Part shown: in pieces, positions 57,766 to 61,179 of the stretch
How the letters are laid out: every line of letters starts with the position of its first letter
Numbering within the stretch: position 1 is the first letter of the stretch
Assembly (NCBI RefSeq): GCF_000236705.1
Contig: NC_016599.1
Location: 1,674,001-1,738,000 of the forward strand
Source: Owenweeksia hongkongensis DSM 17368
GTDB taxonomy: Bacteria; Bacteroidota; Bacteroidia; Flavobacteriales; Schleiferiaceae
DNA: 64,000 bases
Direction of reading: 5' to 3'
Position numbers and translations under genes: made by a program
The notes under the pieces: generated by a model
The model's database searches: none
What the model was told of the DNA's origin: nothing
The model's input: the letters and a program-made list of their open reading frames with translations, nothing else

Positions 57766-58350
57766 ATGAACACTACTACTCTTGGCGCAAGTCGCTATGG
57801 CATTGTTGAATATCAAAATGCTCCCGAAACCATTCAGGCTATTTATGACGACACGATGCAAACGCTGCAATTACCTTTTGTACTAAACTGGTTTAAATGT
57901 CAAGGGAATAATGCTACCCTATTAAAAGGAAACTGGGCAAAGCTAAAGTCTACCCTTATGGAGGGAGATGTGCCTAATGTACTTAAGCAACTTATTATTT
58001 ACAACGTTTCAAAACTTAGAGGTTGCCAATACTGCGCTCACGCACATGGCATATTTGCCGACAGTATGGCCTCTATGCTTTCTGAGGAGCCAGGATTCAA
58101 ACCTAGTCAAGATATGGACTCACCACATATACCAGCCAGCTACAAAACGGCAATTAGTGTGGTTACCAAAGCTGCACTAAATCCTCAGGATGTAGATGAA
58201 AAAGATTTTGCAAAGTTGCAAGAGGCAGGTTTCTCTAACAATGAAATTCAAGAGCTTATGGCTCAAGCGGATTTGGTAAATATGCTCAACACCATTGCCG
58301 ATGTTTCAGGCATAAAGGTAGACAACGAATTACTTGAAGCTGAAATGTAA
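57766..58350 (+). CDS. Carboxymuconolactone decarboxylase / AhpD-like protein
   Basis: 194 residues. The AhpD-type active site CxxCxxxH is intact: Cys87, Cys90 and His94 in GCQYCAHAHG. All-helical fold. Could act as an alkylhydroperoxidase-like reductase or a decarboxylase homologue; partner unknown. It lies 17 nt upstream of the kinase-like gene, so could share its transcript. Confidence 0.88.
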   Translation: MNTTTLGASRYGIVEYQNAPETIQAIYDDTMQTLQLPFVLNWFKCQGNNATLLKGNWAKLKSTLMEGDVPNVLKQLIIYNVSKLRGCQYCAHAHGIFADSMASMLSEEPGFKPSQDMDSPHIPASYKTAISVVTKAALNPQDVDEKDFAKLQEAGFSNNEIQELMAQADLVNMLNTIADVSGIKVDNELLEAEM

Positions 58351-58367: not shown

Positions 58368-59222
58368 GTGAATCAGCACCAGCAAATATATAGGGTAACT
58401 TACGAAGCCTTTTCGCAATTTTCGAGTAGCCTGGCACGAACTAGCACTCTCGATGAACTTCGTGAATGCCTACAAATAAAGGCCAAGTACCTTTTTGACT
58501 ATAAATATTTGCGGATAAGTTCTTTTCTTGGCGAAAAATGGATTCACATAAATGTTAGTTCTCAGGAAAGCACAGCTATTATATCCGATTCTCCGGAGCT
58601 TTACCCACATGAGGTAGAGCTTCAGAGAAAAGGAATTCCTCGGGTTTGGGATTTATCAGAACTTGAAACATATGCGACAGCTTTACAAATTCCAGCAAAG
58701 GATTTAAAAGCTTGGGGATGGCAGTTTAATAACTCTGATCAAAGTGGTATAACCCTCACTTTGGTCGCTAACGCCAGCCAATCTTTTTTAGAAAGAGAGG
58801 TGCCTTACATCAAACTTTTTATTGAGATACTAGAGTCTAAGCTCATGCAGATTTTATTGTTTGATCAAATAGCCTCTAAAAATGATGAGCTCAATAATGC
58901 GTTGGTTACAATTCAAGAAAGAAATTCTGAAATTCAAACAATCATTGAGCATCAGGACGAAATAATTTCGCGGCAAACCAATGACTTAGAGCAGCAAAAT
59001 AAGCAGCTTCGAAAAATTGCTGTACTAAATGCCCATCAAGTGCGCGAGCCCCTATCGCGAATATTGGGACTGATGGAAATATCACCTTACTATAGTGCTG
59101 ATGCTTTAAAAGAGGAAATACTGCCAAAACTCGTTCAGTCTTCAGACGAACTAGACATTGCCTTAAAGGAAGTAATATTAACAGCTGAAAAACCTACTAA
59201 TACCAAACAAATACCATCATGA
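58368..59222 (+). CDS. GAF-like / DHp protein without an ATPase domain
   Basis: 284 residues, GTG start at 58368. N-terminal 165 residues resemble a GAF-type sensor; a coiled coil follows (about 165-215, KNDELNNALVTIQERNSEIQ); then a single DHp helix hairpin with His223 in NAHQVREPLSRILGL, the phospho-acceptor motif H-x-x-R-x-P. The protein ends about 50 residues later: no N, G1, F or G2 box of a HATPase domain is present. It could accept phosphate from another kinase or act as a histidine-phosphotransfer module. It overlaps the receiver gene by 4 nt (ATGA), showing tight coupling. Confidence 0.8.
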   Translation: MNQHQQIYRVTYEAFSQFSSSLARTSTLDELRECLQIKAKYLFDYKYLRISSFLGEKWIHINVSSQESTAIISDSPELYPHEVELQRKGIPRVWDLSELETYATALQIPAKDLKAWGWQFNNSDQSGITLTLVANASQSFLEREVPYIKLFIEILESKLMQILLFDQIASKNDELNNALVTIQERNSEIQTIIEHQDEIISRQTNDLEQQNKQLRKIAVLNAHQVREPLSRILGLMEISPYYSADALKEEILPKLVQSSDELDIALKEVILTAEKPTNTKQIPS

Positions 59223-59587
59223 AAATAATGCTCGTAGATGATAAGGACATCTCAAACTTCATAATGAGAAAGTTCATAGAAATAAGGAAGCCGGATGCTA
59301 CAGTAAAGGAATTTACCGACCCCGCGGAAGCCTTTAATGGTATTAATGACTTCAATCCTGACATCATCTTTTTAGACCTTAATATGCCTATAATGAATGG
59401 GTGGCAATTTTTGGACAAAATGCTGACCGATAAATTATCTCAAAAAGTGGCCATTCTTACCTCTTCTACCAGTAATGAGGATATGGAGAAAAGCAAAAGC
59501 TATGGTAACGTTGTAAACTTTTATGTGAAGCCTCTTACTCCCGATGAATTGGCACGAGTATTTGCTGATTTAAACACACAGTCATAG
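59219..59587 (+). CDS. Single-domain response regulator (CheY-like)
   Basis: 122 residues, receiver domain only. Phospho-acceptor Asp53 in FLDLNMPIMNGW; acidic pocket at Asp7-Asp8 (VDD); Thr81/Ser82 (LTSS) and Lys104 (YVKPLT) are in place, so it should be phosphorylatable. No output domain. Translationally coupled to the ATPase-less DHp protein and followed 101 nt later by a full histidine kinase. Presumably a phosphate shuttle or sink. Confidence 0.93.
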   Translation: MKIMLVDDKDISNFIMRKFIEIRKPDATVKEFTDPAEAFNGINDFNPDIIFLDLNMPIMNGWQFLDKMLTDKLSQKVAILTSSTSNEDMEKSKSYGNVVNFYVKPLTPDELARVFADLNTQS

Positions 59588-59688: not shown

Positions 59689-61179
59689 ATGGAAAAAAAA
59701 CCAGACTGGCAGCTTGCCGAAAACAATTACTACAAACTACTACTGGACGATACCTTAGCCGGTTATTGGGTTAGGAATTTTAAGGATAACACTGGGTACC
59801 TCAGTCCTGCATTCAAGAAAATGTTTGGCTACCAAGACGAGGAAATGCTCACCTCCATTGAAAGCTGGGAACAAATCATTTTTCCTGAAGATCTGGATAA
59901 ACTGTACAAAAACTTTGAACAGCACGTAAAAAGCCGAGGAGAAATACCTCACCGGATAGAAGTAAGGTATAAACACAAAGATGGATCAACAGTTTGGGTG
60001 CAAGCTATAGGCCGAGTAGTAGAATGGGACGAAGATTTCAATCCTGTTCGAATGATAGGTTGTCATATAGATATTAGCAAGCAAAAGAAAATTGAGGATG
60101 ACCTAAAAATAAGTGAACAACAGTTTAAAGGGGCTTTTCAATATTCATCTATCGGAATGGCACTAGTATCGCTGGAGGGTAAATGGATCAGGGTTAATAA
60201 TAAGATTTGCGATATACTAGGCTACAGCAATGACGAACTGCTTGCCACCACTTTTCAAGACATAACACACCCTGAAGACTTACGTCTCGACTTGGATTTA
60301 CTTCAGGAAGTGATTGATCGAAAGCGGAATCATTATCAAATAGAGAAGCGCTATTTTCATAAAAATGGAGAGATAATATGGGTGCAACTGAACGTTTCCA
60401 TTATCACTAATGATGCAGGCGACCCGCTTCACTTTGTTTCTCAAATACAAGATATCACCAAAAGAAAACAAACAGAAGCCAACTTAATTGCCCTCACTGA
60501 AAAACTAACTGCTCGAAATAAAAAACTTGGAGATTTTGCCCACATAGCTTCGCATAACTTAAGGGCTCCTGTGAGCAATCTTACCACATTGATAAATATG
60601 TACAATCAAGTGGATGAACTGGAAGATCGCGAAGAAGTGTACAAGAATTTTCAGCGGGTTGTGAATCATCTTTCTTCTACTTTAAATGACCTCATCGATT
60701 CTTTAAAAATTCAGGAGAACCTAGATCAGACTCGTGAGTCGATTTCTTTTGAAGAAGTTTTAGGCAAGACTAAAGAAATTCTAGTTGCTCAAATTTTGGA
60801 GACAGACACGGTAATTGAAACTGACTTTAGTGAAGTTCACAGTATAATTTACCACCGTCCCTATTTGGAAAGTATTTTTCTAAATCTGCTTTCTAACGCT
60901 ATCAAATATCGCTCTCCCGACCGTAACCCCATCATCAGGATTTCTACAGGGAAATTAGGAAAAGGTGTAACCTATTTAAAAATATCTGACAACGGTATAG
61001 GTATAAACCTAAAAAGACATGGCCATAAGGTTTTCGGTCTTCATAAAACTTTTCATCGCCATAAAGAAGCAAAGGGGGTGGGACTTTTTATGACACGAGC
61101 TCAAGTAGAAGCTATGGGCGGGCAAATTTCTGTAGAAAGCGTAGAGCATGAAGGCACTACTTTCACCATACTTTTCTAA
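59689..61179 (+). CDS. PAS-PAS sensor histidine kinase
   Basis: 496 residues, no membrane segment. Two PAS/PAC modules (about 17-135 and 140-265), DHp with His289 in DFAHIASHNLRAPVSNL, and a HATPase domain with N box NLLSNAIKY, G1 SDNGIGIN, F region VFGLHKTFH and G2 GVGLFM. Cytoplasmic, so it senses an internal signal, perhaps redox or small molecules. It probably phosphorylates the neighbouring receiver or DHp protein. Converges with the heme-binding protein gene: their stops are adjacent. Confidence 0.93.
   Translation: MEKKPDWQLAENNYYKLLLDDTLAGYWVRNFKDNTGYLSPAFKKMFGYQDEEMLTSIESWEQIIFPEDLDKLYKNFEQHVKSRGEIPHRIEVRYKHKDGSTVWVQAIGRVVEWDEDFNPVRMIGCHIDISKQKKIEDDLKISEQQFKGAFQYSSIGMALVSLEGKWIRVNNKICDILGYSNDELLATTFQDITHPEDLRLDLDLLQEVIDRKRNHYQIEKRYFHKNGEIIWVQLNVSIITNDAGDPLHFVSQIQDITKRKQTEANLIALTEKLTARNKKLGDFAHIASHNLRAPVSNLTTLINMYNQVDELEDREEVYKNFQRVVNHLSSTLNDLIDSLKIQENLDQTRESISFEEVLGKTKEILVAQILETDTVIETDFSEVHSIIYHRPYLESIFLNLLSNAIKYRSPDRNPIIRISTGKLGKGVTYLKISDNGIGINLKRHGHKVFGLHKTFHRHKEAKGVGLFMTRAQVEAMGGQISVESVEHEGTTFTILF

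Follow-up and report, generated by a model that had tools for sequence, protein, structure and literature searches.

A conserved CMD - GAF/DHp - receiver gene cassette with a histidine-kinase-like sensor that has no ATPase domain

The window, a stretch of 64,000 nucleotides (nt) from Owenweeksia hongkongensis DSM 17368 (assembly GCF_000236705.1, contig NC_016599.1, positions 1,674,001 to 1,738,000 of the forward strand), contains a conserved three-gene cassette in the order CMD - GAF/DHp - REC. Its genes code for a CMD (AhpD-like) protein, for a histidine-kinase-like protein with a GAF-like sensor and a DHp domain (GAF/DHp) and for a lone receiver (REC). The CMD gene ends 17 nt before the start of the GAF/DHp gene, which overlaps the REC gene. 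The cassette features are as follows, with positions counted from the first letter of the window:

57766..58350, + strand: CMD / AhpD-like 'peroxidase-related' protein, 194 amino acids (aa), cassette gene 1 (Pfam CMD, 2.2e-06)
58368..59222, + strand: GAF-like sensor - coiled coil - DHp protein without HATPase, 284 aa, GTG start (open reading frame, alignment, model)
58368..58787, + strand: GAF-like sensor domain, residues ~1-140 (AlphaFold2 model and fold comparison)
58989..59189, + strand: DHp helical hairpin, residues ~208-274 (AlphaFold2 model; His invariant in 55/55)
59034-59036, + strand: codon of His223, motif H-Q-V-R-E-P (sequence)
59219..59222, + strand: ATGA overlap of 4 nt between the DHp and REC genes (sequence; same in 23/54 relatives)
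59219..59587, + strand: lone receiver (REC), 122 aa, ATG start (Pfam Response_reg, 6.5e-18)
59375-59377, + strand: codon of Asp53 of REC (sequence)

An earlier note, made from the sequence alone, had described the second protein as a GAF-like sensor followed by a coiled coil and a DHp helix with His223 but no HATPase domain, and this description is borne out by alignment, by Pfam and by an AlphaFold2 model. Searched alone, the window protein has no match in Pfam, NCBIfam or the PDB sequences. An alignment of 55 sensors, consisting of the window protein and 54 relatives, was analysed as well. When Pfam matches are judged by E-value only (E ≤ 0.01), not by the curated cut-off for each member, HisKA is matched by 45 of the 55, the window protein itself remaining unmatched; no sensor matches any HATPase or GAF family, and the Hpt profile is absent from the five Pfam families matched by any of them. 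The AlphaFold2 model built on the 55-row alignment (pLDDT 92.2, pTM 0.71) consists of an alpha/beta N-terminal domain, a helix at residues 142-241 and a second helix at 244-274, after which the protein ends with no further domain, a degenerate ATPase-like one included. Comparison of the N-terminal part with solved structures returned a list filled by GAF domains, with 8jrc_A as the best (Z 13.0, rmsd 3.0, 153 aligned residues). A HATPase module hidden in the C-terminal part, for which the earlier note had proposed structure prediction as a check, is ruled out by the absence of any Pfam match in 55 sensors together with a model that ends after the DHp hairpin.

GTDB species genomes were scanned with the CMD alignment, which gave 69 named loci: 54 have the order CMD - GAF/DHp - REC, and in 11 CMD is followed by a full kinase. 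The other 4 were left out of the counts, L075 and L124 because contig ends cut them and L123 and L129 because their frames are broken. The REC gene directly follows the HATPase-less sensor in all 54, and the sensors are 252-294 aa long. Many of these loci come from congeners, and L112, L115 and L132 lie on the same contigs as L010, L009 and L033, so that the 54 are not independent. They span the Flavobacteriaceae (Zunongwangia, Salegentibacter, Gillisia, Christiangramia/Gramella, Leeuwenhoekiella, Mesonia and others) and also come from Pontibacter, Segetibacter, Spirosoma, relatives of Owenweeksia and one metagenome-assembled genome of Verrucomicrobiota. The latter (L085, Puniceicoccaceae bacterium 5H) has a complete cassette in a Verrucomicrobiota contig, as a result either of gene transfer or of a misbinned contig or contamination. 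The two loci with broken frames, both from draft assemblies of Mesonia, nevertheless have an H..REP piece downstream, and a REC piece as well. A pseudogene or a sequencing error in the window is ruled out by the same architecture at 54 other loci.

The GAF/DHp protein thus belongs to a stable family and is not a broken kinase. The occurrence of the cassette is patchy. Among 60 genomes including that of the window, strong CMD matches (E ≤ 1e-20) and full-length GAF/DHp matches were found in the same three (the window's own, G015 and G029). Full-length GAF/DHp matches occur in two of 395 genomes of the phylum, again including the window's own, the other being G328; CMD is found in the same two and, weakly, in G246. 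The cassette order CMD - GAF/DHp - REC is present in G015, G029 and G328 alike. Within the family, CMD is present in 3 of 88 genomes, and it is absent from three further genomes of the same genus.

The phosphoacceptor histidine is invariant in the 55 sensors, all of which have Arg at position H+8 and Glu at H+4; the usual phosphatase residue at H+4, Thr or alternatively Asn, is not kept. The residue at H+1 is acidic in only 7 of the 55, being Asn in 34 of the 54 relatives and Gln in the window. In HisKA kinases an acidic residue next to the histidine acts as general base in autophosphorylation, and a polar residue that is conserved and drawn as Thr activates water together with the histidine in the phosphatase step (PMC7005713). 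For comparison, H+1 was tabulated in full kinases of the same genome, using the 23 loci with a histidine found by motif out of 30 loci taken from 51 HATPase matches: it is Asp or Glu in 19, Asn in 3 and Gln in 1.

The receiver has the anatomy of a single-domain response regulator, that is, a receiver domain only, with an acidic pair, a phosphoacceptor Asp, Thr/Ser and Lys (D7, D8, D53, T81/S82 and K104 in the window), and D7, D8, D53, S82 and K104 are invariant in all 55 rows. The 4-nt overlap with a lone receiver bearing all catalytic residues, described in the earlier note, was confirmed, with Asp53 at the place given there; so was the idea of a single unit made up of DHp protein and receiver, their order being conserved in 54 of 54 loci and the overlap in 23 of them. 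Gene order and residue conservation together give strong support to the receiver as the probable partner of the GAF/DHp protein. Because the autokinase base and the phosphatase position next to the histidine are both altered while His and Asp are kept, these residues favour phosphotransfer, with a phosphatase role as a possible alternative.

The 11 loci with a full kinase (L113, L114, L117-L121, L125, L130, L131 and L134; Mucilaginibacter, Cesiribacter, Thermoflexibacter and others) offer a natural contrast: the same CMD and sensor are combined either with an ATPase domain but no adjoining receiver, or with a receiver but without an ATPase domain. The kinase that follows CMD is 425-475 aa long, and Pfam (E ≤ 0.01) finds HATPase in 11 of 11, HisKA in 10, GAF_2 in 3 and GAF in 1. 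Its H+1 residue is Asp in 11 of 11, whereas its H+4 residue is Ala, Arg or Gly. A receiver is the next same-strand open reading frame, where one was seen, in none of these loci, and a reading frame with receiver motifs lies elsewhere within ~5 kb in 3 of the 11. Between the GAF/DHp and kinase families the alignment covers GAF, coiled coil and DHp (hhalign probability 99.9, E 1.4e-36). Since the alignment runs from the start through DHp, the short form corresponds to the long form minus the ATPase domain. These CMD-linked GAF histidine kinases are therefore like the cassette sensors in their upstream CMD and homologous domains, and unlike them in the retained HATPase, the Asp at H+1 and the absence of REC as the next gene on the strand.

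Both forms are parted by one branch in a careful, unrooted CMD tree of 66 rows (bootstrap 100, SH-aLRT 99) and in a quick tree built on the sensor columns that precede the histidine (SH-aLRT 100; long-branch warnings). A quick CMD tree with L065 as outgroup places the HATPase-less form as one clade (99) inside the kinase form, which needs two changes on this tree. Such a topology would make the kinase form the older one, but L065 sits on a very long branch. Loss of HATPase with gain of REC would accordingly be the simpler reading of the direction of the switch, with a root that is not safe. The contrast between the forms allows a direct question to be put, namely what supplies phosphate to a sensor that is unable to use ATP.

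The third constant member of the locus, the upstream CMD gene, is the conserved neighbour of the pair and had gone unmentioned in the earlier note. Its product is matched by NCBIfam peroxid_rel at 6.2e-14, under the curated cut-off, and structures of AhpD-core proteins match the CMD profile. The motif CxxCxxxH (C87, C90, H94) is invariant in 66 of 66 cassette CMDs, a count to be read knowing that one of the two scan patterns includes C90 and H94 and so favours those residues. With the CMD profile and this motif the first cassette gene has the marks of an AhpD/CMD redox enzyme, its activity being predicted. ECF41 sigma factors offer a precedent, since there too a signalling gene has a CxxC CMD enzyme as its neighbour, which is the sole detected target; they differ from the cassette in being sigma factors and not two-component proteins (PMC3426412). 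By this precedent the CMD protein could be an input or an output of the cassette.

Distant CMD genes were also inspected for a link between CMD and GAF proteins outside this family, and no such link is claimed. At L065 (G246; 261-2037) a CMD without CxxC is followed after 13 nt by a gene read by eye as GAF-cyclase, whose product has weak similarity to the GAF/DHp family (hhalign probability 12). For 16 other distant CMD loci the next same-strand reading frame is shown in 12, and none of these is GAF-like by eye in the printed residues, L263 being a case where the wrong reading frame was picked.

How the pair might work is suggested by PhyT and SdrG of Sphingomonas melonis, where a kinase-derived phosphotransferase with a conserved histidine takes phosphate from a single-domain regulator and passes it to the final regulator (PMC5898713). 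By analogy, phosphate would enter from an unlinked kinase onto Asp53 of REC, would move from there to His223 of GAF/DHp and would then leave to an unlinked acceptor or be discharged; the GAF domain would decide when transfer is allowed, perhaps tuned by the AhpD-like enzyme. The GAF/DHp protein would thus be a GAF-gated histidine phosphotransfer protein that exchanges phosphate with its co-translated receiver and is fed from outside, a proposal to which we give an even chance. His-Asp transfer, an outside kinase, gating by GAF and redox input are what we infer; the anatomy, the lack of HATPase, the conserved cassette, the homology of the sensor to a full kinase and the invariant His and Asp are computational results. 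PhyT itself is membrane-bound, is encoded at the phyR locus and delivers to PhyR, unlike the cassette protein with its GAF-like sensor (PMC5898713). The earlier note had offered a phosphate shuttle or a decoy: a shuttle is plausible and fits the invariant His and Asp, whereas a decoy is less likely because the histidine and the receiver Asp and Lys are invariant in 55 rows.

Several points weigh against the phosphotransfer proposal. Asn at H+1 is found in 3 of the 23 full kinases of the same genome, so that it is no proof of lost kinase chemistry. The reaction scheme in PMC7005713 lets the histidine help to activate water, so an invariant histidine fits a phosphatase too, and phosphatase activity is reported there for a version of HK853 that lacked the CA domain. 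Glu at H+4, a polar residue, might act in the phosphatase step. As for the redox link of the cassette, it is drawn from gene order.

These points bear most directly on a signal-gated phosphatase or phosphate sink, in which other kinases or small phosphodonors would charge REC and GAF/DHp would only discharge it. We regard this as rather unlikely. The invariant histidine and REC site agree with it, but H+4 is Glu in all 55 and not Thr or Asn. Moreover, HisKA proteins mutated at the histidine lose phosphotransfer and keep phosphatase activity (PMC7005713), and because of this the invariant histidine points more to transfer. A non-catalytic partner, whose DHp hairpin would form heterodimers with another kinase or dock the receiver while His223 is kept for fold or binding, has some precedent in ChrS with a frameshift in its CA domain, which affects signalling, and in ChrS/HrrS heterodimers (PMC9491836). 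Docking alone, however, does not require the histidine and the REC Asp and Lys that are all present in 55 of 55, and we consider this alternative unlikely.

The earlier note had instead proposed a three-protein relay with the neighbouring kinase, which lies outside the conserved cassette:

59689..61179, + strand: PAS-PAS histidine kinase (Pfam PAS_3, HATPase_c; weak HisKA match)

Its start is 101 nt downstream of REC on the same strand, and such a relay could hold for this organism alone. However, in the other 54 cassettes no kinase was seen as the next reading frame on the same strand, and a motif scan that recovers 10 of 11 known cassette kinases found a HATPase-motif reading frame within ~5 kb in only 2 of the 54. 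The relay is accordingly distinctly unlikely, and the kinase is a candidate phosphate donor by position. The survey of gene order suggested in that note thus upheld the DHp/REC pair, present in 54 other loci, but not the partnership with the PAS-PAS kinase. A split kinase, with a separate ATPase-domain protein phosphorylating His223 in trans, was also considered: His223 does lie within a complete DHp hairpin, yet no stand-alone ATPase-domain reading frame was seen among the 51 HATPase matches of the own genome (E ≤ 0.01, shortest open frame 265 aa), and an acidic H+1 is missing in 48 of 55 sensors. We give this possibility very little credence.

A search for a promoter between REC and the kinase gave no informative result: sigma-70-like and terminator-like sites do not clearly exceed shuffles, and a Bacteroidota-type promoter pattern shows no excess over chance in the window.

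As regards known systems, the cassette protein has the features of a histidine-kinase-derived phosphotransferase, namely a DHp with a conserved histidine and no working ATPase domain. ChpT is a DHp-type histidine phosphotransferase, and in both Spo0B and ChpT a degenerate ATPase-like domain is retained and a GAF sensor is absent, unlike in the GAF/DHp protein. Spo0B is described as a DHp-type histidine phosphotransferase in PMC11210211. The ChrS pseudokinase resembles GAF/DHp as a histidine kinase without a working CA domain that still affects signalling, and it differs in being a laboratory-evolved mutant and not a conserved family (PMC9491836). The combination of a kinase-derived phosphotransfer protein with a single-domain regulator is therefore of a known kind; new here are the entirely missing ATPase domain, the GAF-like sensor on the same protein, the contrast between ATPase domain and receiver, and the CMD enzyme. 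A literature search over titles and the beginnings of abstracts, with few subscription papers, found no description of a CMD - GAF/DHp - REC cassette or of a Bacteroidota class of HATPase-less DHp sensors. A sensor ending in a bare DHp is easily mistaken for a truncated kinase, and the window protein alone is named by neither Pfam nor NCBIfam.

A profile of the DHp C-terminus, built from the relatives, matches 67 of the 395 phylum genomes (E ≤ 1e-12). From the 62 best-scoring among the matches listed, 60 were fetched, omitting the window's own and the own-genome gene at 1799765; one genome (G079) supplied ten of the 60, and the window's own supplied one. All 60 proteins end 52-79 residues after the histidine, which leaves no space for an ATPase domain; since the profile derives mostly from bare-DHp C-termini, the sample leans towards that form. 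In the sampled Bacteroidota it is common for a PAS-type sensor to end in a bare DHp. A receiver was flagged just downstream in 13 of the 60, clear in 11 and doubtful in two (L187, L189), and none was seen in 47, the search covering the downstream side only. The H+1 residue is aliphatic in 39 of the 60 and acidic in 14; among the 23 full kinases of the own genome it is never aliphatic. Among relatives, fusions of DHp to REC without HATPase were read by eye in L016 (G017), with an intact receiver, and in L028 (G006), with a degenerate one.

HATPase-less PAS or GAF sensors with a neighbouring or fused lone receiver may thus form a widespread Bacteroidota class, in which unlinked kinases would fill a common phosphate pool gated by many sensors and of which the CMD cassette, with one evolutionary step between the two forms, would be the clearest case; we put this forward tentatively, as somewhat short of probable. 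If the wider class behaved alike, some of the two-component wiring of Bacteroidota would escape censuses based on HisKA and HATPase.

At least two further bare-DHp genes (1444414 and 1799774) are present in the own genome. Each adjoins a receiver, and both receivers are among the three of that genome that are closest to the window REC. Other close lone receivers adjoin full kinases, so that receivers of this type are not confined to bare-DHp partners. The sensor of L002 (1799774-1800034, + strand) has an open frame of 923 aa and abuts a lone receiver (in L307), an architecture as in the cassette. In L003/L305 (1444414-1446415, - strand) a 527-aa open frame, with a bare DHp (H-H-V-R-E-P) at its end, lies directly downstream of a lone receiver, so that the order of the pair is reversed.
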